DNA from: a virus
Length of the DNA: 46,722 bases
IMG/VR virus record: IMGVR_UViG_3300040758_000035
Span: 1-46,722 of that record
Strand: one strand, 5' to 3'
Part shown: positions 3,242 through 29,461 of the stretch, piece by piece
How positions within the stretch are numbered: position 1 is the stretch's first letter
Layout: each line of letters starts with the position of its first letter
Notes under the pieces: model-generated
The model's database searches: none
Seen by the model: the letters and a program-made list of their open reading frames with translations, nothing else
Told to the model about the DNA's origin: nothing
Made by a program: the position numbers and the translations under genes

Positions 3242-3323
3242 CGCAGAGTCAAGGCGGAGTCCGGCATACAAGATGTTGCGGTATGCCCCGCCTTAATGCG
3301 GCAGGCCGGTGACAAGCCCGGCC
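3242..3323 (+). repeat. Two-hairpin intergenic repeat, copy 2
   Basis: The variable first hairpin is GGCGG...CCGCC with an inner GGCATAC/GTATGCC stem; the conserved second hairpin GGCCGG...CCCGGCC follows, 20 bases before the start codon at 3343. Confidence 0.75.
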
Positions 3324-3479: not shown

Positions 3480-3565
3480 CGCAGAGTGACGCACCTTAGC
3501 CTCTACTACTAGGCGTATAATTCATGGCGGGTGCGATAATGCGGCAAGCCGGTTACAAGCCCGGC
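3480..3565 (+). repeat. Two-hairpin intergenic repeat, copy 3
   Basis: The first hairpin closes with CGCACC/GGGTGCG; the second is AAGCCGG...CCCGGCT. It lies 16 bases upstream of the ATG at 3582. Confidence 0.75.
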
Positions 3566-4634: not shown

Positions 4635-4694
4635 CGCAGACGGAACCCGCATACTGTGCGGGTTTAATGCGGCAGGCCGGTTGTAAGCCCGGCC
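4635..4694 (+). repeat. Two-hairpin intergenic repeat, copy 5
   Basis: The unit starts immediately after the stop codon of the preceding gene. First hairpin ACCCGCA...TGCGGGT, nearly identical to copy 1; second hairpin GGCCGG...CCCGGCC. Confidence 0.8.
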
Positions 4695-4950: not shown

Positions 4951-5034
4951 CGCAGAACACAGCATTCATACACCGGCTAGCGTGTCCTAGTCTATGAGTG
5001 TTGTAATGCGGCAGGCCGGTTGTAAGCCCGGTCC
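4951..5034 (+). repeat. Two-hairpin intergenic repeat, copy 6
   Basis: The unit begins directly after a stop codon and ends 14 bases before the next ATG. Nearly identical to copy 4. Confidence 0.8.
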
Positions 5035-7623: not shown

Positions 7624-8685
7624 ATGCAGGTGATGTTGGCAACACAGACAAGCAATGTGAAAAAGTTACGCTACCCGGTCTATGCCTCTGTGAAGCTGGA
7701 CGGGATTCGTGCGTTTATTCACAAGGAAGATAATACTGCCTCGGTTGTTATGAGTCGCAGTATGAATCTGATTCCGAACGAATTTGTGCAGGAAAAACTT
7801 CGCAGGGCAGAGCCGGGTCTGGACGGAGAGCTTATTTACGGCGACCCGAATGCAAAGGATTGCTACTGCCTCACGCTTTCCATCGTCATGAGTGAACATG
7901 ATTCCCGTGGCGCAGACGTTGACTTTTACGTATTCGACAAGGTAGAGGACAAGCCTTTCGAGCAACGGTACGAAGATTATTGCTATGCTGTTACTGCTAT
8001 GGGTCCGTTGTCTTTCAGTGTTAAAGCTGTCCGCCAGACCCTCGTATTCTGTGTGGCTGAGTTGCGGGCCTTCGAGAAAGACGTTCTAGCCCATGGCGGC
8101 GAGGGCGTGATGGTCCGGGACCCGCAAGGTCCGTACAAGCATGGCCGGTCAACAGAGCGGGAAGGCTGGCTGCTAAAGGTGAAGAGGTTTGTTGACGCAG
8201 ACGCCGAGGTCTATGATTTTCTACCCCTCTATCACAACGCCAATGCTGCGTTCAAGAACGCCCTCGGCCATACGAAGAGGTCCCTGTCCAAAGCTGGTAA
8301 GGTGCCTCTGCCTTTGCTTGGCCGGTTTCTAGTACGTGATTGCAAGAGCAAAGTCGAGTTCGAGGTCGGCGTCGGATTCACGATGCGCCAGCGACGCAAG
8401 ATGTGGAAAGAACTGCAAGCGAACCCACTGGCCTACAACGGTCGCATCATGAAGTACAAACACTTTCCACATGGTGCCAAGGTTAAACCACGTCATGCAA
8501 TCTTCCTTGGCTGGCGTAGCAAGTTGGACATGGACGCTCCTAGCCCTACCGGACGTTTGAACGTGCCCGGTCCGGCTATTCAGAACATTCCTATCGAGCG
8601 AGTGCCGCTTGAAAATTTGGCTCACGCTCCCGAGCGTCCGAAACGAAATGTGGCGTTCACTACGCGCAGGAAGCCAATCGGCTAG
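7624..8685 (+). CDS. ATP-dependent DNA ligase, 353 aa
   Basis: Nucleotidyltransferase motifs are in order: motif I VKLDGIRA with catalytic Lys24, motif III DGELI (67-71), motif IV GGEGVMVRDP (Glu160) and motif V LLKVKRF (Lys185, Lys187). A C-terminal OB-fold region follows (about 195-300). The tail after residue 300 is proline-rich. It joins nicks in double-stranded DNA during phage replication and repair, using ATP. GGGAGGAAGT lies directly before the ATG. Size fits compact phage ligases. A role on RNA-containing nicks is less likely because a separate RNA ligase is present at 13873. Confidence 0.88.
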   Translation: MQVMLATQTSNVKKLRYPVYASVKLDGIRAFIHKEDNTASVVMSRSMNLIPNEFVQEKLRRAEPGLDGELIYGDPNAKDCYCLTLSIVMSEHDSRGADVDFYVFDKVEDKPFEQRYEDYCYAVTAMGPLSFSVKAVRQTLVFCVAELRAFEKDVLAHGGEGVMVRDPQGPYKHGRSTEREGWLLKVKRFVDADAEVYDFLPLYHNANAAFKNALGHTKRSLSKAGKVPLPLLGRFLVRDCKSKVEFEVGVGFTMRQRRKMWKELQANPLAYNGRIMKYKHFPHGAKVKPRHAIFLGWRSKLDMDAPSPTGRLNVPGPAIQNIPIERVPLENLAHAPERPKRNVAFTTRRKPIG

Positions 8686-11171: not shown

Positions 11172-11511
11172 AAAACGCTATGACCAATCCGAAAAAGGCA
11201 AAAGAACACGCCAACTTAGAGAGTGCCTTTATCAACAAAAAATAAAAAAAATCGTTTTGACTTTTTATGGCAAAAATAAGCAATCTAAATGCTGTTGGCC
11301 AAAGTGTAACGTAATAGATTTAGACATGCTTACTCTTGACCATATCAATAATGATGGTGCTAAGCATAGAAAATTTGTAAAATATCATCTTTACAAATGG
11401 ATAAAATCCCATAACTTTCCTAATGGGTTTCAAACCCTGTGCTGGAATCATCAATGGAAGAAAAGAATTAAGGAATGCAGGAGAAAACAACGTGCCAAAG
11501 CTCGGGAATAA
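11137..11511 (+). CDS. HNH endonuclease, 124 aa
   Basis: CCWPKCN then DLDMLTLDHINNDGAKHRKF and GFQTLCWNHQWKKR give the HNH core (LDHI, N, and C-W-N-H). GAGGAG lies seven bases before the ATG at 11137. It is AT-rich compared with its neighbours and its last 20 bases overlap the start of the RecB-like gene, supplying that gene's ribosome binding site. It is a paralogue of the HNH at 13488-13883. Probably a free-standing homing-type endonuclease. Confidence 0.8.
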   Translation: MPWGTAARIASKKRYDQSEKGKRTRQLRECLYQQKIKKIVLTFYGKNKQSKCCWPKCNVIDLDMLTLDHINNDGAKHRKFVKYHLYKWIKSHNFPNGFQTLCWNHQWKKRIKECRRKQRAKARE

Positions 11512-12679
11512 GTGCCCCTCACGAGAAGAGTACCACACATTTGAAAGTCAATTTTGTTTGCGTGAATGCGGAGCGGAACGCCAATGCGTCCCGGCCAGTG
11601 TTCTAGTCCACATCGCAAACAAGGCGTGGACAGAAAAACACGTAGGCGATTATATTAGCGTCACATCACTTCTTGGCTGTCTACGCGAGTTGTATCTGGA
11701 AAGAACTGAGAACTGGTATCAGGAGCCGCCTACATCGTGGTACAGCATCCGTGGGACGCTCTTGCATACCATCCTTGAAAACCCGGACTTCCGTGGGCTA
11801 GTGGATGACATGGGCAGGTACTTGCTGCGCCTCACTAAGGCCGAAATGATTAACCCCAAGGTGATGCGCCTATGGCTGGAAGCGGAGGCCAATTTGCTGC
11901 AATTGGCGAACCTGCTTCCTGAGCAATACCACGTTCCTGATTGGGAATCAGAAGTCGAATATGAAATGTCTCTCGGGGTGATCGACGGAAAAGAACGCTG
12001 GATTCATGGGACCCTAGACGTTATCCGCCGGGCGGCACAAGAGATCATCGACTACAAAACGATGGCGGATAAGGGCCTGCCGTACATCGGCAAGTACGGG
12101 GTGAAGCCAGAGCATGAAATACAGTTCAACATTTACCGGCTGCTGGCAGAGCGCGGTTGGCCTGTGGGCCAGCGAGATACTTACGTACCTTTCCAAGTCA
12201 AAAGAATCAAAGCATATTATCTTTCTATGATGCAAATCATAGGAACTGGAGCAACCATGGTTGAACAAACGCCGTGGCTAGCCTCCGAGCCAAAGACGTA
12301 CAGCAGCGAAGTAAGCCGCGAAGTGCTCAATGAACGCGATGATGTCGTGGTCAAGCGCGGGAAGCGCCGGGGAAGCAACGACCCTAACGATTACCAGCTT
12401 TCCCACAAAACAAAATATCGCTTGACATACGCTGTGCCTGATGTTAGGCTGTTGGACTTGGACGAAGTTTACAAATTCGTGGTCGATAAAGCGACGATCC
12501 TCTTCCGGGCATTCGATCACGGAGAAGTACCACCGCTGCCCTCAGTAGAAATGCAGCTTTGGAAATGTGACACGTACTGCCCGGTAAAGAAGTTTTGTGA
12601 TGTCATCTGCGCACAGCGCGGCGAAGAACGCGCCAAGGTCGAAACGGAGAAAGACGAAATTCCAATCGAAGGAGACTAA
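11492..12679 (+). CDS. RecB-like PD-(D/E)XK nuclease, 395 aa
   Basis: The core reads RGTLLHTILE (His92), then IHGTLDVIRR and QEIIDYKTM: Asp176, Asp187 and Lys189 match the RecB/Cas4-type active site. The C-terminal CDTYCPVKKFC plus upstream cysteines suggests an iron-sulfur cluster as in Cas4/AddB-like nucleases; an N-terminal C-x13-C-x3-C-x5-C group may bind zinc. It probably resects or trims DNA ends during recombination. I chose GTG at 11492, after AGGAG in the end of the HNH gene. Confidence 0.8.
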   Translation: MPKLGNKCPSREEYHTFESQFCLRECGAERQCVPASVLVHIANKAWTEKHVGDYISVTSLLGCLRELYLERTENWYQEPPTSWYSIRGTLLHTILENPDFRGLVDDMGRYLLRLTKAEMINPKVMRLWLEAEANLLQLANLLPEQYHVPDWESEVEYEMSLGVIDGKERWIHGTLDVIRRAAQEIIDYKTMADKGLPYIGKYGVKPEHEIQFNIYRLLAERGWPVGQRDTYVPFQVKRIKAYYLSMMQIIGTGATMVEQTPWLASEPKTYSSEVSREVLNERDDVVVKRGKRRGSNDPNDYQLSHKTKYRLTYAVPDVRLLDLDEVYKFVVDKATILFRAFDHGEVPPLPSVEMQLWKCDTYCPVKKFCDVICAQRGEERAKVETEKDEIPIEGD

Positions 12680-13487: not shown

Positions 13488-13883
13488 ATGAACAGAAAAG
13501 AAACAGTTAGAAAATACAATGGTGGCATTAAAGGAAAAGCCGCACAGAAAAAATATCTCCGAACATCTAAAGGAAAAGCCTCTCGCTGCCGAATAAACTT
13601 CAGACACCAGCGACAAACAAAGAACATTGTTCTAGCTCGTTACGGAAAGGACGGAGAAGCAAAATGTTGTTGGCGTGGATGTAGCCAAATCGATTTAGAT
13701 ATGTTGACATTAGATCATGTCAACAACGATGGCGCATACCAACGACGCAAAGGCCAAATGCATGGCTCGAAGTTGTATTCTTGGCTCTTCCATAGAGAGC
13801 GTCAAAAAGGGCTTCAAACTCTATGTTGGAATCATCAATGGAAGAAACGTGCATTGCATCTTCGGAGGTTACATGCTACTTAA
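13488..13883 (+). CDS. HNH endonuclease, 131 aa
   Basis: CCWRGCS then DLDMLTLDHVNNDGAYQRRK and GLQTLCWNHQWKKR: the same HNH core as the gene at 11137-11511. The N-terminal 45 residues are very basic (RKETVRKYNGG, KGKAAQKKYLRTSKGKASRC). It is AT-rich relative to the neighbours. Its last 11 bases overlap the RNA ligase start and supply GGAGG for it, the same arrangement as the first copy. Probably a homing-type endonuclease. Confidence 0.8.
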   Translation: MNRKETVRKYNGGIKGKAAQKKYLRTSKGKASRCRINFRHQRQTKNIVLARYGKDGEAKCCWRGCSQIDLDMLTLDHVNNDGAYQRRKGQMHGSKLYSWLFHRERQKGLQTLCWNHQWKKRALHLRRLHAT

Positions 13884-15105
13884 TCAATATGTCGATGCAA
13901 ATGAGCTAGAAGGAGGAGTTTCTAACGGGCTTGTTTCTAAACGCCCTCATCCCAAATGGCCTTTAGACATATACAACTATACGAGCGAAGCGATGACGAA
14001 GACGCATGACGATGTTACGCTCCGCCGCTGCCGTGGTCTGATCGTGGACCGGGAGACCGGGGAGATCGTGGCCCGGCCAATGGAAGCTTTCTTCAACATC
14101 AATGACACGCGCTACCCGGAGACGATGCTGGACAACCTTCCGTTGAATCCTCTCAAGAACAAGATCGAGATCACCGAGAAGATGGACGGAAGCATGGGCG
14201 TCATTTTCCAGTACAAGGACAATCCGCCGGAAGTGGCGACTCGCGGGTCCTTCGACAGCGAGCAAGCGAAGTGGGCTACTGCCTTCCTGCAAGCTCTGCC
14301 CTGCTTCCAGATGCCGCGCCATCAAACGTTGCTGGTGGAGATCATCATGCCGGGCAACCAGATCGTAGTAGACTACGGCAAACGCGAGTCTCTGGTGCTC
14401 TTCGCAGTGATTTACAAAGAGACCGGCGAAGAGTTGGCCTACGAAGAAATGGCGTTCGACAACGGACGATACTTCGGTCTGGAACTCGTGCCCCTGTTTA
14501 CCAAGACTGTTGCACAGTGTGCGGAAGAGAACGACAAAAACCGCGAAGGATACGTAGCTAAATTCCTTTCGCACGGAGGCTACATCCGATTGAAGGAGTC
14601 GGAACCTTTGAACTGGTCGCTGGCGATTCCTCACAAGGCTCCTCTGCGCGTCAAAATCAAGTTCGAGAACTACAAGCTGAGTCACCGGGCGATGTTTGGG
14701 ATGACGAACCGTGATGTGTGGGAGACGCTGAGCCAAGGCAAGACTATTGATGTTGCCTCGTTGACTCCGTTCACTCCGCCTGAGTTCACCGAATGGCTGA
14801 CCGGCAAGATTGCATATTACACGCTGATGTTCAAGTACATCGAGCAGGAGAGCATCGCGCTAGCTCGCATCGCCGGAAGCCGGGGAGATTGGAATCGCAA
14901 GGCCGTGGCCGAGTTTTTCAAACAGCAGGTGTTGATGCAGCATCCGGCGGAAGGCCCCGAAATGATATTCCTAGCGCCTGTACTGTTTTTGATGTACGAT
15001 GGAAAGGACTACGCCAAAGTTATTTGGAAGATACTGCGTCCGGCGCGGGCAGAATTCTTCTCACAGGGCACCTATCACGCGGAGGAGTCCAATGACGAAG
15101 TCTAA
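13873..15105 (+). CDS. T4 Rnl1-type RNA ligase, 410 aa
   Basis: Motifs in order: RRCRGLIVDRETGEIV (51-66), motif I TEKMDGSMG with catalytic Lys103, RGSF near 124-127, motif III LLVEIIMPGNQIVVDY (Glu156), motif IV REGYV (Glu225) and motif V VKIKFENY (Lys261, Lys263). A helical C-terminal domain of about 140 residues follows, as in T4 Rnl1. The enzyme seals RNA 5'-phosphate to 3'-hydroxyl ends and typically repairs tRNAs cut by host anticodon nucleases; no polynucleotide kinase partner is visible in the window. It starts at ATG 13873 after CGGAGG. It could also act on the phage's own structured RNAs. Confidence 0.87.
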   Translation: MLLNQYVDANELEGGVSNGLVSKRPHPKWPLDIYNYTSEAMTKTHDDVTLRRCRGLIVDRETGEIVARPMEAFFNINDTRYPETMLDNLPLNPLKNKIEITEKMDGSMGVIFQYKDNPPEVATRGSFDSEQAKWATAFLQALPCFQMPRHQTLLVEIIMPGNQIVVDYGKRESLVLFAVIYKETGEELAYEEMAFDNGRYFGLELVPLFTKTVAQCAEENDKNREGYVAKFLSHGGYIRLKESEPLNWSLAIPHKAPLRVKIKFENYKLSHRAMFGMTNRDVWETLSQGKTIDVASLTPFTPPEFTEWLTGKIAYYTLMFKYIEQESIALARIAGSRGDWNRKAVAEFFKQQVLMQHPAEGPEMIFLAPVLFLMYDGKDYAKVIWKILRPARAEFFSQGTYHAEESNDEV

Positions 15106-19185: not shown

Positions 19186-20858
19186 TGAAACTGCGTCCGT
19201 ACCAAGTCGATGCCCTCCAAGCGATCACTAACAAATGGTATTTAGGCGTGAAGCGTCAATTGGTTACCATGCCTACCGGCGTCGGTAAGACTGTAGTTTT
19301 TGCGAATCTTCCCCGACTGATACCAAATAAGCGTATGTTAGTTCTAGTGCATAGGGAGGAGCTTGCGCAGCAGGCCGCAGACAAGATCAAGAAATGGAAT
19401 CCTGAATTGTCAGTGGCAATTGAGATGGGTTATCTGCGCGACGACAACAATTCGCAGATTGTAGTCGGTAGCGTGCCCACACTCAGCCGGGCGAATTCAA
19501 ACCGCTTGCAAGCACTGAGGCCGGAAGACTTTGGAATCATAGTCACAGACGAGGCTCATCATGCAATCGCAGACAGTTACCAAACCATTTACCAGTACTT
19601 CGGAGTGCTGGCCGACACGAGCCACATCCTACATGTTGGAGTTACCGCTACGCCTAATCGTGCGGATGGAAAGGGCCTTGCCGAAGTGTTTTCAGAGGTC
19701 ACTTACCAGATGGGCATTCTCGATGCCATCAAACAAGGGTGGCTCGTCAACCTCCGAGGCTACAAGATTACAACAGATCAATCGCTGGATGGAGTACATA
19801 CCCGCGCTGGCGACTTTGCTACAGATGAATTGGAAAATGCTGTTAACAACTCTCAGCGGAATGAGCTTGTCGTCAAGCACTGGCTCGAAAAAGCGCAAGG
19901 ACGACCTACCTTGGTTTTCTGCGTCGGAATTAGCCATTCTCAACAAATGGCGGCTGTTTTCCAAGCCCATGGAATCGCGGCGGCTGCCGTATGGGGAGAG
20001 GATGTCAACCGGGCCTTTAAACTTATGGCGCTGCGAAATGGAACCATTAAAGTTCTATGCAACTGCGCCGTCCTCACCGAAGGATACGACGATTGGCACA
20101 TCGGCTGCATCGTCATGGCCCGGCCAACCAAGTCCCAACTCCTCTACGTCCAATGCACAGGCCGGGGCACGCGCATCCCGGACGGTCTCAATAATCTGCT
20201 TGAAGCCAGAGCCGACAATACGCCTATTAAAAAGGAAGACTGCATCTTACTGGACGTTGTGGACGCCACTACGAAGCACTCGCTCATCACAGTCCCCAAA
20301 CTCTTCGGTATGTCGGAACGCATGGACATGCAAGGGCGGACAGTAACAGCGGCGCTGGACTATTTCAACAAGGTTCAAGAAGAGCATCCGAACGCCAACC
20401 TGAAAGACGCACAAGACCTGTTGAAGCTCAGAAGCTACGCGGTAAGCGTCGATTTGTTTTCTTTCAAATGGGCAGAAGAAATTCTTGGAGCATCAAAGTT
20501 ACAGTGGCATAAGTCTACAGACGGCCATTACATGCTATATTTGAAAAGCGGTAGGCTAGATGTGTATGAAGACCTTGTACAGAAATGGCATGTAAGTGGG
20601 CAATTGGGCGAAAAAATAAATCATGTTGACGAACATAACATCAATGATTTGCCAGAAGCTCTCCGAATCGCTGAAGAATTTGTAAGATTGCTTTGCCCCG
20701 AAGAAATGACACTGGTGAGACGAGAGGCGCGTTGGCATAAAGATGAAGCTACGCTTGCACAACTTAGACTTTTACGGAGATTTAGAATACCTATTCCACA
20801 AGGGATAACTAAAGGAATGGCTCAAATTGCTCTTTCAAAAGTTTTAAGAAAGTCTTGA
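19185..20858 (+). CDS. Superfamily 2 DEAH-box helicase, 557 aa
   Basis: Motif I TGVGKT (31-36), Ia HREELAQQAADKI, II DEAHH (122-126), III TATP (154-157), then a second RecA-like domain with VLTEGYDD and motif VI QCTGRGTR (323-330). A C-terminal extension of about 170 residues has no recognised domain. It is similar to type III restriction-like or UvsW-type helicases that branch-migrate or unwind recombination intermediates using ATP. It starts by ATGA overlap with the RlpA-like gene. Confidence 0.82.
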   Translation: MKLRPYQVDALQAITNKWYLGVKRQLVTMPTGVGKTVVFANLPRLIPNKRMLVLVHREELAQQAADKIKKWNPELSVAIEMGYLRDDNNSQIVVGSVPTLSRANSNRLQALRPEDFGIIVTDEAHHAIADSYQTIYQYFGVLADTSHILHVGVTATPNRADGKGLAEVFSEVTYQMGILDAIKQGWLVNLRGYKITTDQSLDGVHTRAGDFATDELENAVNNSQRNELVVKHWLEKAQGRPTLVFCVGISHSQQMAAVFQAHGIAAAAVWGEDVNRAFKLMALRNGTIKVLCNCAVLTEGYDDWHIGCIVMARPTKSQLLYVQCTGRGTRIPDGLNNLLEARADNTPIKKEDCILLDVVDATTKHSLITVPKLFGMSERMDMQGRTVTAALDYFNKVQEEHPNANLKDAQDLLKLRSYAVSVDLFSFKWAEEILGASKLQWHKSTDGHYMLYLKSGRLDVYEDLVQKWHVSGQLGEKINHVDEHNINDLPEALRIAEEFVRLLCPEEMTLVRREARWHKDEATLAQLRLLRRFRIPIPQGITKGMAQIALSKVLRKS

Positions 20859-20883
20859 CTTGAGCAAGGGGTTGTGTTATCCT
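20855..20883 (+). promoter_or_regulatory. Sigma-70-type promoter for the tmRNA locus
   Basis: TTGACT (20855-20860), 17 bases, TATCCT (20878-20883). The -35 overlaps the helicase stop region. Start of transcription is expected near 20890. The spacer GGTTGTGT also occurs in the promoter at 33865. Confidence 0.7.
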
Positions 20884-20889
20884 GTAGGT

Positions 20890-21203
20890 AGATCAGATGG
20901 TGGAGGCCGTGAGGCCCCTTGGTACTGGCAGTAGCCCGGCGTTCTGGTCCGCCGAGAGCTATTATAAAGTACGCTCATAAACAGGCCGTATGACTATACA
21001 ACGACACGAGAGTTCGATTCTCTCTACCTCCACCATACGGGGGTATAATGGCATCGACCGGGGTAAGAGGAAACGGCGCTTATTTGAGCCGGGAGTGGGA
21101 GACTTCCGAAATCAACTCTCAAAACTAACTGCGAAAAACACGAAGGTGCTTTACGCAAATGCGTAGTTTGCATACAAGGATGGGGAGTCGAAGGACTCCC
21201 CTA
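20890..21203 (+). ncRNA. ssrA: Circularly permuted (two-piece type) tmRNA
   Basis: An acceptor piece comes first: T-arm GAGAG-TTCGATT-CTCTC (21008-21024), acceptor strand TACCTCC (21025-21031), ACCA (21032-21035). Three bases later the coding piece opens with GGGGGTA (21039-21045), which pairs with TACCTCC in seven pairs including G3-U70, the alanine identity pair, and continues TAATGGCATCGACCGGGG, the tmRNA 5' consensus. Helix P2 joins the pieces: TGAGC (21085-21089) with GCTCA (20973-20977), and ACGGC (21073-21077) with GCCGT (20985-20989), with equal 7-base internal loops. Pseudoknot PK1: GGGAG/CTTCC (21091-21107) interlocked with TGGGAG/CTCTCA (21096-21121), nine bases before resume codon GCG. 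The stop codon lies in the loop of GCAAA/TTTGC. A strong hairpin (21182-21201) closes the locus. The 5' end of the acceptor piece and the processing sites are inferred. No SmpB gene is visible. Confidence 0.8.
21131..21166 (+). other. tmRNA tag reading frame AKNTKVLYANA
   Basis: GCG resume codon at 21131-21133 preceded by AACTAACT, then eleven codons AKNTKVLYANA and TAG at 21164-21166. The length and the alanine start fit tags; the end YANA differs from the common LAA, which could alter recognition by host proteases such as ClpXP. Confidence 0.7.
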
Positions 21204-21235
21204 CCGAGTTTAATGGACGGCGTTCACCGCCTCCG

Positions 21236-21364
21236 CAGGTCCACCATAATCAGCCATACCCTAGTTGTTAGGCAAGTTCTTAGACGTGTGTTGCAAAGCA
21301 AGGCGTATACAGACAACATCGTGCCATGACCGTAGGGAAATTATGGCTGATTATTGTGGGCCTG
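21236..21364. repeat. 22-bp inverted repeat joining CCA end and second tmRNA-like head
   Basis: CAGGTCCACCATAATCAGCC plus AT (21236-21257) and AT plus GGCTGATTATTGTGGGCCTG (21343-21364) pair at 21 of 22 positions counting one G-U. The outer seven pairs (CAGGTCC with GGGCCTG) equal a tmRNA acceptor stem with G3-U70. Confidence 0.7.
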
Positions 21365-21460
21365 TTACGGTTTCGACGGGCAAGATTGGGGTGTATGCTT
21401 CGTCACGCCGACGCGGAGCCGGGTGGGGCCGGGTAACACCGGCCTCTACTGGTAAAGAAG
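21358..21460 (+). ncRNA. Second tmRNA-like 5' domain, probably incomplete
   Basis: GGGCCTGTTACGGTTTCGAC followed by GGGCAAG is an excellent tmRNA 5' head. Its acceptor partner CAGGTCC-ACCA is upstream at 21236-21246, again a permuted order, with 111 bases between. However, no T-arm (GTTCRANNC in a 5-bp stem) precedes that acceptor strand, and no tag frame with a resume alanine codon is evident before the protein gene at 21469; only a GGCCGG/CCGGCC hairpin (around 21427-21445) follows. It may be a decayed second tmRNA or a piece of a host gene. Confidence 0.4.
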
Positions 21461-21468
21461 GGGGTCCA

Positions 21469-21705
21469 ATGGCGCTGCTAGGTCTTGATGCAAAGCAAGT
21501 GGCGGTAATGAACAGCTTGGAACGCTGGAACTACTTTACTTCGTATGCCTCGCGTCTTGAGGATGCTCCGCCGAAAGGCCCACACTACGCTATCCGCATC
21601 GGCTCGCACACGATCTACGCCAACGAGACCGATGAGCTTAGGGAAAAATTCGAGATCATGTGCCGGAAGCTCCGGCGCAAACTCGGGCTGAGGATAAACA
21701 AATGA
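21469..21705 (+). CDS. Hypothetical protein, 78 aa
   Basis: MALLGLDAKQVAVMNSLERW with AAGAAGGGGG upstream. The second half has an alternating pattern (HYAIRIGSHTIYANETDEL) and a basic end (CRKLRRKLGLRINK). The frame is open further upstream through the tmRNA-like head, but that part is RNA-structure sequence. The stop overlaps the next ATG. No family recognised. Confidence 0.6.
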   Translation: MALLGLDAKQVAVMNSLERWNYFTSYASRLEDAPPKGPHYAIRIGSHTIYANETDELREKFEIMCRKLRRKLGLRINK

Positions 21706-26782: not shown

Positions 26783-26796
26783 AAATTTGCAGAAGT

Positions 26797-26872
26797 GCGG
26801 AGGTCGTTTAATGGTAGGACAGACTGTCAACCAGCAGTCAGGTAGCGGTTCGATTCCGACTCCTTCGCTCCA
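26797..26872 (+). tRNA. tRNA-Gly-like element with 8-base anticodon loop, overlaps a gene start
   Basis: Acceptor GCGGAGG (26797-26803) pairs with CCTTCGC (26862-26868), followed by U discriminator and CCA, as in tRNA-Gly. D-arm GTTT-AATGGTA-GGAC. Anticodon stem GACTG/CAGTC closes an 8-base loop TCAACCAG without U33 in the usual place. T-loop TTCGATT is canonical but its stem has only three pairs (CGG/CCG). It reads as a tRNA-derived structure; whether it decodes is doubtful. Its acceptor strand contains GGAGG and its D-loop the ATG of the Mom-like gene. Confidence 0.55.
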
Positions 26873-27482
26873 AATTTCAGCGACAGATTTTGTAATTGCG
26901 CAATGCAAACTTTCGGATATTCGGATGTTTGTAGAACAGCATCATTACTCACATAATTTGAATGGGGTGAAAATTTCTTTCTGCTTTTCGGCCACGTATA
27001 AAGGCGCGTTGGTCGGTGCGGTTGTTTACGGTCAATTTTCAACTACGGCTTGGAAAAGATTTGGAGAATCCGAAAAAGAGGTACTGGAATTACGGCGATT
27101 AGTTTTCCTTGATTCGGTGGGGAAAAACGCTGAAAGCCGCATGATCGGCTATACCTTGCGTTGGATTAAAAAGAATGCGCCTGAAATCAAAATTGTTGTT
27201 AGTTATGCTGACCCGATGCACGGACATAGCGGTGTAATCTACAAAGCATCCAATTTTGAATATATAGGTCTCAGCGGAAAGGACAGAGGATTCACAGACC
27301 CCGAAACCGGACGGACTTATCATTCCCGCGCACTTAGGACGAAATACAATGGGGATTACAAACCGTTCGTGAAAAAACTTCGAGCAAAGTATGACCAAGG
27401 AGAATTGATTTCGATTGAATTGCCGGGGAAACATTGCTATGTCTATAAAATTCATAATCCGGTTTTAAGGATAGTATTTTAA
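26811..27482 (+). CDS. Mom-like DNA modification / GNAT-fold protein, 223 aa
   Basis: FVEQHHYSHNLNG, ALVGAVVYGQFSTTA, EVLELRRLVFLDSVGKNAES, IVVSYADPMHGHSGVIYKAS and RTYHSRALRTKY match the Mom family, GNAT-related enzymes that modify adenine in phage Mu DNA and protect it from restriction. No other in-frame start fits the fold except ATG 26811 (or TTG 26787), and GGAGG lies seven bases before the ATG; both are inside the tRNA-like element. An additional 20 residues encoded by that element (QQSGSGSIPTP) look like an unstructured leader. The gene has lower GC than its neighbours. Confidence 0.7.
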   Translation: MVGQTVNQQSGSGSIPTPSLQISATDFVIAQCKLSDIRMFVEQHHYSHNLNGVKISFCFSATYKGALVGAVVYGQFSTTAWKRFGESEKEVLELRRLVFLDSVGKNAESRMIGYTLRWIKKNAPEIKIVVSYADPMHGHSGVIYKASNFEYIGLSGKDRGFTDPETGRTYHSRALRTKYNGDYKPFVKKLRAKYDQGELISIELPGKHCYVYKIHNPVLRIVF

Positions 27483-27518: not shown

Positions 27519-28670
27519 ATGGCTAACATTCCGCTGGACCTGACACTTAAAACCAAAGCGCGGCAAAAGTTTGAAGACTTGCTCTTCAAGCGCATAGTGG
27601 GTCAGGACGACGCCTTAAATGATCTTAGCAGGTCATTCGAGGTTGCGTGGGTTGGCCTGTCAGACCCGTCTAAACCAATGTTTAATTCTTTACTTTTGGG
27701 ACCGACTGGGGTTGGCAAGACGTTGACCGTAGAGTCAATCGCCGAAGCAATCCACGGAGACCCGGATTGCATGATAAAGATCAACTGCGCAGAATATACC
27801 GAAGATCACCAAGTAGCTCGCATTATAGGGTCTCCACCGGGCTATGCTGGGCACTACAACCCCGCCGAGGCCGGAAACAAGGGTACACGCCCACTTCTAT
27901 GTCCCGAGAACCTACAACGTGGCTGGACGCAAGAAGGCCCGAAGGTGAGCGTAATACTCTTCGATGAAATTGAGAAGGCCAGCCCACGCCTGTGGGAGCT
28001 TCTGTTGGGCATTCTGGACAAAGGTGAGATGTACGATGGCCGCAATATGCGCATCGACTTGACGCGGGCGCTCATCTTTCTCACCAGCAACGTAGGTAGC
28101 CGGGTCATCAACCAAGAGTCCATTGGCTTCGCCGAGGCTAGGGATTACGTCGAGGCTTTCAGGGACATTTCAAAGCAGGCTACCTCCGCCGCGAAACGAA
28201 AGTTCGACCCTGAGTTCATGGGGCGTATCAACAAGATTCTGGTATACAAGCCTCTCACCGCCGAGGCCATTAACCGAATCATTAACATCGAAGTTTGGAA
28301 AGTATGGAATCGCGGGTTGAGTGTCGTGATGGCTGCAAACGAACGCAGTCCCACCCCACAACAACTCGTGTTCACACTTGGCGTGACTACGAAATTGAAT
28401 GAGTTTCTGAGCAAGGGGTCTGACCCGAAACACGGCGCTCGCAACATCAAGCGCATGATCGAGGAACACATCGTCAGTCCTTTGGCAACGATCATCGGCA
28501 CAGGCCAACTACGCAAGCCGGGCATGGTCGTTCTTGACATACAAGACAAAGCCATTACAGCCATATTCAAAGAACAGAACACAGACGAAATCGTACCAGC
28601 CGCCTGCCAAGTGATCGAGGAAGACGATGGGAAGGAAAAAGCAGTATGCGATATTCCAAAGACGGAATGA
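27519..28670 (+). CDS. ClpA/ClpB-like AAA+ unfoldase, 383 aa
   Basis: A single AAA+ module of the Clp D2 type: Walker A GPTGVGKT (61-68), pore loop GSPPGYAGH (104-112) with the aromatic Tyr, Walker B ILFDEIEKA (146-154), sensor 1 FLTSNVG (187-193), arginine-finger region EFMGRI, and a C-terminal D2-small domain with GARNIKRMIEEHI. It would thread protein through its central pore by ATP hydrolysis. No N domain, middle domain or ClpP-docking loop (IGF) is apparent. It may be a remodelling factor or use an unknown protease; targets are unknown. Possibly relevant to tmRNA-tagged protein turnover. Confidence 0.8.
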   Translation: MANIPLDLTLKTKARQKFEDLLFKRIVGQDDALNDLSRSFEVAWVGLSDPSKPMFNSLLLGPTGVGKTLTVESIAEAIHGDPDCMIKINCAEYTEDHQVARIIGSPPGYAGHYNPAEAGNKGTRPLLCPENLQRGWTQEGPKVSVILFDEIEKASPRLWELLLGILDKGEMYDGRNMRIDLTRALIFLTSNVGSRVINQESIGFAEARDYVEAFRDISKQATSAAKRKFDPEFMGRINKILVYKPLTAEAINRIINIEVWKVWNRGLSVVMAANERSPTPQQLVFTLGVTTKLNEFLSKGSDPKHGARNIKRMIEEHIVSPLATIIGTGQLRKPGMVVLDIQDKAITAIFKEQNTDEIVPAACQVIEEDDGKEKAVCDIPKTE

Positions 28671-29387: not shown

Positions 29388-29461
29388 TTGCCGGTAGCTC
29401 AGTGGTAGAGCGCAGGACCGTGGCTCTTGCTACGCGGGTTCGATTCCCGTCCGGCAACCCA
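29388..29461 (+). tRNA. tRNA-His(GUG)-like, with C33
   Basis: Acceptor TTGCCGG pairs perfectly with CCGGCAA; discriminator C73 and CCA are encoded (C73 is typical of tRNA-His). D-arm GCTC-AGTGGTA-GAGC, T-arm GCGGG-TTCGATT-CCCGT and a 5-bp anticodon stem CAGGA/TCTTG are good. The loop is CCGTGGC: anticodon GTG (29420-29422) but C instead of the near-universal U33. No G at position -1 (it is T). Might be inactive in decoding or have another role. Confidence 0.7.

Follow-up and report, generated by a model that had tools for sequence, protein, structure and literature searches.

A circularly permuted tmRNA gene and a tagless tmRNA-like element in tandem in a phage of a likely acidobacterial host

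Introduction

Permuted tmRNAs are represented by the merged model RF04321 and by the alpha (RF01849), beta (RF01850) and cyanobacterial (RF01851) types, which have in common with the locus studied here the order of the pieces, a removable spacer, a shared tRNA-like domain and a tag in the coding piece. As a kind, the phage two-piece tmRNA is already published. One survey reported tmRNAs in 402 of 18,146 phage genomes, with 133 unique structures of which 53 were two-piece (PMC9004378), and 79 phage tmRNA sequences have been compiled elsewhere (PMC11915505). The methylophage Melnitz and other marine phages likewise carry a permuted tmRNA, and that of Melnitz belongs to a lineage (alphaproteobacterial) other than its host's (PMC9004378); thus, a host-mismatched phage tmRNA alone is not new. 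Melnitz differs from the phage described here in phage group and environment and in having a glutamine riboswitch, and the accessible part of that report mentions no second element (PMC9004378).

Another related case is the TLD-only tmRNA of mycobacteriophage DS6A, which the downstream element of our locus resembles in having lost the tag and kept much of the tRNA-like domain (PMC4131195, PMC11915505). As far as these sources describe it, the DS6A RNA comprises little beyond the TLD, whereas our element follows a complete tmRNA and combines the permuted order with a spacer hairpin of 111 nt. Finally, Tunturi 3 and 4 (PP885686, PP885687), the cultured phages closest to ours in helicase, primase and DNA polymerase, each carry an unannotated permuted tmRNA; they differ in their tags (29 and 33 aa), in having one tmRNA over cut-off each and in possessing an RF-1 (GGQ) gene. 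In the literature covered, outside which most subscription papers and bioRxiv preprints lie, we found no report of a permuted tmRNA in acidobacterial phages and none of a complete permuted tmRNA in tandem with a tagless one.

A complete two-piece tmRNA gene

The analysed stretch, hereafter the window, is the whole IMG/VR record of the window phage (46,722 bases), which is represented here by metagenome contigs. A covariance scan of the window matched RF04321 (tmRNA_permuted) at 20973-21166 on the plus strand with 64.8 bits and an E value of 2.4e-10 (cut-off 47). This gene, element 1, and its surroundings contain the following features:

20855..20883, +: sigma-70-like promoter TTGACT-17-TATCCT with TG before the second hexamer (9 of 12 matches), directly upstream of element 1
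20973..21035, +: acceptor piece, from covariance models, folding and direct reading; the true 5' end may lie further upstream
20973-20977 and 20985-20989, +: P2 3' strands of the acceptor piece (direct reading)
21008-21024, +: T-arm GAGAG-TTCGATT-CTCTC (direct reading)
21025-21031, +: acceptor 3' strand TACCTCC (direct reading)
21032-21035, +: ACCA (direct reading)
21036..21038, +: intervening sequence TAC (direct reading and strict detector)
21039..21205, +: coding piece, from covariance models, folding and reading; the 3' end is a guess
21039-21045, +: acceptor 5' strand GGGGGTA (7 of 7 pairs, G3-U70)
at 21053, +: D-region ATCGAC (direct reading)
20973/21085 and 20985/21073, +: P2 helices GCTCA/TGAGC and GCCGT/ACGGC, with internal loops of 7+7 nt
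21090-21120, +: PK1, CGGGAGT/ACTTCCG plus GGGAG/CTCTC
21131..21166, +: tag frame AKNTKVLYANA, from resume codon GCG at 21131 to TAG at 21164-21166
21155-21171, +: stop-codon hairpin GCAAA/TTTGC with the TAG in its loop
21182-21201, +: 3' hairpin of the coding piece (folding and reading)

The initial annotation had proposed a circularly permuted two-piece phage tmRNA with the tag AKNTKVLYANA, and sequence, structure and the RF04321 score all agree with this proposal. The acceptor piece precedes the coding piece, and the acceptor strands form the described 7-bp stem with G3-U70, next to the CCA end. The two P2 helices with equal internal loops and the stop codon held in a hairpin loop were also found as described, and PK1, said to lie nine bases before the resume codon, ends 10 nt before it as drawn here and 9 nt with one extra pair. 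The covariance-model search that had been suggested as a check placed element 1 over the cut-off of the merged RF04321 and under those of the beta and alpha models; RF01850 (beta_tmRNA) gave 35.8 bits over 20922-21205 (cut-off 84) and RF01849 (alpha_tmRNA) 21 bits over 20959-21140 (cut-off 50). The cyanobacterial RF01851 had no row in the below-cut-off table, which omitted four overlapping clan matches. ARAGORN called no tmRNA in the window, element 1 included. When the two mature pieces were folded in trans, the acceptor stem, T-arm, P2 and PK1 stem 1 were recovered, and the fold of element 1 had a z score of -3.2. A strict detector (7-bp acceptor with G3-U70, ACCA and TCGAC) gave one chance match in 200 Markov windows of equal length on both strands. 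The upstream promoter is weak evidence, because the region contains three such sites and its shuffled versions contain 1.0 on average.

Comparison of the element region with phage records revealed no DNA similarity. The tmRNA alone gave short weak DNA matches in 18 records, some of them within tRNA genes, and its acceptor motif had no match in the genome contig collection. Four other contigs of the window phage (L003-L006, up to 91.9 kb) were identical across 862 nt around both elements described here. Accordingly, they provide no within-species covariation for element 1 over the 862 nt compared, and an assembly artefact as the source of the tandem is unlikely, since the same tandem appears in all four.

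From this anatomy we infer how the gene would act. Transcription of element 1 would follow that of the helicase gene, and tRNA-processing enzymes of the host would cleave the RNA at the CCA ending at 21035 and at G 21039, its pieces being held together by the acceptor stem and P2. It would then be charged with alanine via G3-U70, bind host SmpB and rescue ribosomes stalled in infection, appending AKNTKVLYANA. SmpB would be borrowed from the host, because no SmpB gene was found in the 21 records searched, many of which are fragments.

Spacer length and frequency of phage permuted tmRNAs

Two narrow pattern scans of IMG/VR recovered 45 and 7 further records with a permuted tmRNA. The first yielded 49 stretches, of which four were copies from the window phage, and the remaining 45 records all scored over the RF04321 cut-off; the second yielded nine stretches, one of them in the relative G005, which has a permuted tmRNA over cut-off, and seven of the eight other records exceeded the cut-off as well. 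With these many IMG/VR records and the published 53 two-piece forms among 133 unique phage tmRNAs (PMC9004378), the rarity that the initial annotation attributed to phage tmRNAs was overstated. Its remark on the unusually short spacer held in part: 3 nt is the shortest among 53 viral elements, but it is unexceptional, since 20 of the remaining 51 elements have a spacer of 4-6 nt. This comparison (n=53) left out the four near-identical contigs, duplicates and two spurious detector matches; L171 has no row in the element comparison, the tree or the HMM comparison, L034 none in the element comparison or the tree, and L309 none in the HMM comparison.

Two further loci drew attention when inspected by eye. 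A permuted tmRNA in L163 (G061, 11458-11857) has a 219-nt spacer with stretches resembling a tRNA T-arm, and L172 (G085, a 134.6-kb phage record and helicase relative) looks like a one-piece tmRNA, in which the tag region ends in VPLAA and an acceptor with a CCA end lies further downstream.

A tagless permuted element behind the first

A second permuted tmRNA-like unit, absent from the initial annotation, begins 49 bases past the stop of the first tag. The features of this unit, element 2, and of the gene behind it are:

21170-21176, +: possible P2 strand GCATACA (weak)
21215..21246, +: acceptor piece, comprising GGA, T-arm, CAGGTCC and ACCA
21218-21235, +: T-arm CGGCG-TTCACCGC-CTCCG with one mismatch
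21247..21357, +: intervening sequence of 111 nt, a hairpin (folding z -3.9)
21246-21258 with 21342-21354, +: spacer helix of 12-13 bp, continued by 21259-21263 with 21333-21337, 5 bp (folding)
21358..21452 (end approximate), +: 5' piece, with GGGCCTG, TTACGGT, then a GC-rich hairpin or weak PK1-like fold
21372-21379, +: D-region TTCGACGG (direct reading)
21392-21398, +: TGTATGC (direct reading)
21455-21464, +: SD-like AAGAAGGGGG of the 78-aa gene (direct reading)
21469..21705, +: ordinary-looking 78-aa gene in the place of element 2's tag

The order of parts in element 2 is T-arm, CAGGTCC, ACCA and spacer, then GGGCCTG and TTACGGTTTCGACGG, and the strict detector found a 7/7 acceptor stem with G3-U70, ACCA and a TTCGAC D-region in permuted order. 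RF04321 gave 15.9 bits, under the cut-off of 47. Four of the five T-stem pairs are formed, against five of five in all 52 other elements, a comparison possibly biased towards intact T-arms because those elements came from T-loop or model searches. The P2 helix was not significant (57 of 1000 shuffles were as good), and element 2 occupied the longest of the 53 branches in the tree (1.71). Hairpin spacers like that of element 2 are usual in this phage group.

Element 2 has no recognisable tag: the stretch scanned contained no Ala-ending frame of at least 8 residues. Codon-position G+C of the 78-aa gene found there (0.53/0.41/0.67) is similar to that of the neighbouring genes, and searches of PHROGs, of phage records and of loci from the relatives yielded no relative of it. 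A tag consisting of a long frame into this gene was considered and rejected, as this gene carries an SD-like site and a coding signal of its own and ends in ..GLRINK.

Analysis of the loci scanned with the strict detector revealed one element per positive locus and two only in window-phage loci, with one false match at tRNA genes in L020. No record in the whole-record searches had two RF04321 matches over cut-off. Weak matches less than 1 kb from a strong one were present only in the window-phage contigs (element 2), in G017, where its position at the start of the contig marks it as the tag portion of the strongly matching gene, and in G075, where it lies on the opposite strand about 510 bases off. 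A weak match in G031 (11.3 bits) lies about 1.2 kb off, and ARAGORN calls just one tmRNA there. A looser detector that accepted any NCCA gave extra matches in L105, L109, L120 and L172, which were not counted as tmRNAs.

Phage relatives and the presumed host

The best 80 helicase relatives were kept from an alignment-based scan, and 29 chosen from these were searched whole. RF04321 was over cut-off in 12 of the 29, once in each (two of the 12 are identical), and absent over cut-off in the other 17. For helicase, primase and DNA polymerase, the best phage-record matches were Tunturi 4 and 3, with 31-38% identity, best E values of 6e-129, 5e-119 and 7e-130 and a wide margin over the others listed. 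Both Tunturi genomes themselves scored over the RF04321 cut-off (79.2 and 63.3 bits); their deposited tables showed CDS features only, and no tmRNA, in the stretches viewed, and the main text as accessible gives a tRNA of unknown type for both phages and does not contain the word tmRNA (PMC11924767).

The host of the window phage is likely an acidobacterium (soil Acidobacteria), since these nearest cultured phages among those listed infect Tunturiibacter (Acidobacteriota). The UvsX comparison gave the Tunturi phages no special place (Tunturi 3 ranked third) and neither of them was among the best eight matches of the protease-like gene, so the host is one that we infer from the other three genes.

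Both Tunturi phages encode an RF-1 domain protein of 112-115 aa with GGQ (Tunturi 4, L177:43946-44293; Tunturi 3, L313:2470-2808), and that of Tunturi 4 is encoded next to the permuted tmRNA; the gene was absent from the 19 other records searched, window included. These proteins are possible ribosome-rescue factors by their sequence, and the phage group may invest in ribosome rescue. Decay of mRNA might be what creates the demand for rescue in infection; an RNase E gene is annotated in Tunturi 4.

Elsewhere in the window, a single tRNA-His(gtg) gene (29388-29461), an RNA ligase (13717-15105), an ATP-dependent DNA ligase (7624-8685), a Mom-like DNA modification protein (26787-27482) and an ATP-dependent-protease-like protein (27519-28670) were observed, together with five Twister-P5 ribozymes (RF02684, 38.5-55.2 bits), all inside 2.3 kb in a region of small ORFs:

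2764-2821, 3242-3321, 3480-3564, 4635-4692 and 4951-5031, +: Twister-P5 ribozymes (RF02684)

Tags

Fifteen tags were read in the phage group, including that of the window phage; they have 11-37 aa, with a median of 26. Each was checked for a stop directly after it, and its start was set by inspection at the homologous resume position; for L160 (21 aa), ARAGORN independently yielded the identical tag. The seven acidobacterial host tags that were read all have 9 aa (for example, ANDNLALAA), and the commonest tmRNA tag length is given as 10 aa (PMC11915505). Long tags of 21-37 aa were seen in L160, L161, L163, L164, L166, L168, L169, L170, L179 and L180, and eight of these ten end in LAA or VAA.

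The element 1 tag has 11 aa and ends in ANA, and no other of the Ala-ending tags listed has Asn before the final Ala. ClpXP recognises the last tag residues LAA, so the ANA ending may lead to slower degradation of tagged proteins.

Origin of the permuted form

One-piece tmRNA was over cut-off in seven of eight acidobacterial genomes. The presumed host class, that of G088 (locus L243, Terracidiphilus gabretensis), was sampled with 250 genomes: the one-piece model RF00023 was over cut-off in 222 and in none of the remaining 28, and RF04321 was over cut-off in one (G186, locus L308). The latter was rejected as a permuted gene: the 500 bases read show a broken 3' end lacking CCA, then a one-piece-type gene start with the tag AEPQFALAA. 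G186 has two one-piece matches, and the broken copy mimics a permuted gene for RF04321. With 222 of the 250 genomes one-piece and none convincingly permuted, the phages carry a gene form that has no counterpart in the sampled host class. Other members of the window phage's group have long tags and hairpin spacers.

It is conceivable, though we consider it quite unlikely, that phages of Acidobacteriota form an independent permuted lineage derived from a host-like one-piece tmRNA rather than from alpha, beta or cyanobacterial forms, with tags up to 37 aa, and that the tagless copy of the window phage would in addition be a decoy against the host tmRNA system. A D-region starting TC[AC], a motif chosen after looking at rows that are not independent, occurred in 8 of 14 phage-group elements, in all eight host genes and in none of 40 other viral permuted tmRNAs, and a weakly supported tree placed the host genes among most of the phage group; both count for such a lineage. 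Against it, element 1 itself lacks the motif (TAATGG), and three group members and two other elements fell on the unexpected side of the tree. Host-phage affinity in the HMM comparison, again with rows that are not independent, was mixed, with p 0.007 for the 5' part and the opposite trend for the 3' part (p 0.995). The best tree did not unite phage group and hosts, and a joint grouping was not rejected (p-AU 0.17).

Discussion

It is probable that element 1 is a working two-piece tmRNA of the phage and that element 2 is a degenerate tmRNA in which an ordinary gene has replaced the tag. The view of element 1 as a non-working passenger or relic could appeal to its unusual ANA tag end and to its scores under the alpha and beta cut-offs, but its helices, PK1 spacing, resume codon and looped stop are intact, its T-stem is perfect and many relatives have retained this type of gene, which makes such a view highly improbable. 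For element 2, degeneration is the most likely fate: it would once have been a hairpin-spacer tmRNA of the type common in the group, with the tRNA-like shell kept and the 78-aa gene in the tag's place. In one scenario, element 2 would be the resident gene and element 1 a copy obtained from a different lineage; this fits the spacer types, although the tree puts element 1 weakly with phage-group members.

A molecule similar to that of DS6A strongly inhibits tmRNA, perhaps by SmpB titration, as far as the sources describe it (PMC4131195, PMC11915505). By this precedent, element 2 could be a functional tmRNA with the tRNA domain only, which would titrate SmpB or alanyl-tRNA synthetase and blunt the one-piece tmRNA of the host, as suggested for DS6A; its intact acceptor stem, G3-U70, CCA and D-region and the long unbroken spacer helix are what such a role would lead one to expect. 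We regard this as unlikely, as the T-stem mismatch is unique among 53 elements, GGAC is altered, P2 is not significant, the branch is the longest in the tree and no second case appeared in the records searched; moreover, such a decoy would hinder element 1 too. Element 2 could also serve as a tRNA-like 5' leader through which the mRNA of the 78-aa gene is controlled or processed. The strong fold (z -4.4) and the start of the gene 16 nt past the structured part, with an SD-like sequence, would suit a leader, but comparative support is lacking and the gene has no detectable relatives, and we consider this very unlikely. Thus, a degenerate tmRNA behind a working one is the reading that we prefer.

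Taken together, our results describe a phage group with a tmRNA form foreign to the sampled host class and with tags often several times longer than those of the host, one member of which, the window phage, additionally keeps a tagless second copy. Two questions become testable in culture with Tunturi 3 and 4 and Tunturiibacter: which advantage a phage draws from a ribosome-rescue RNA of its own, and, through element 2 expressed in a laboratory strain, whether tagless tmRNAs may act as inhibitors.
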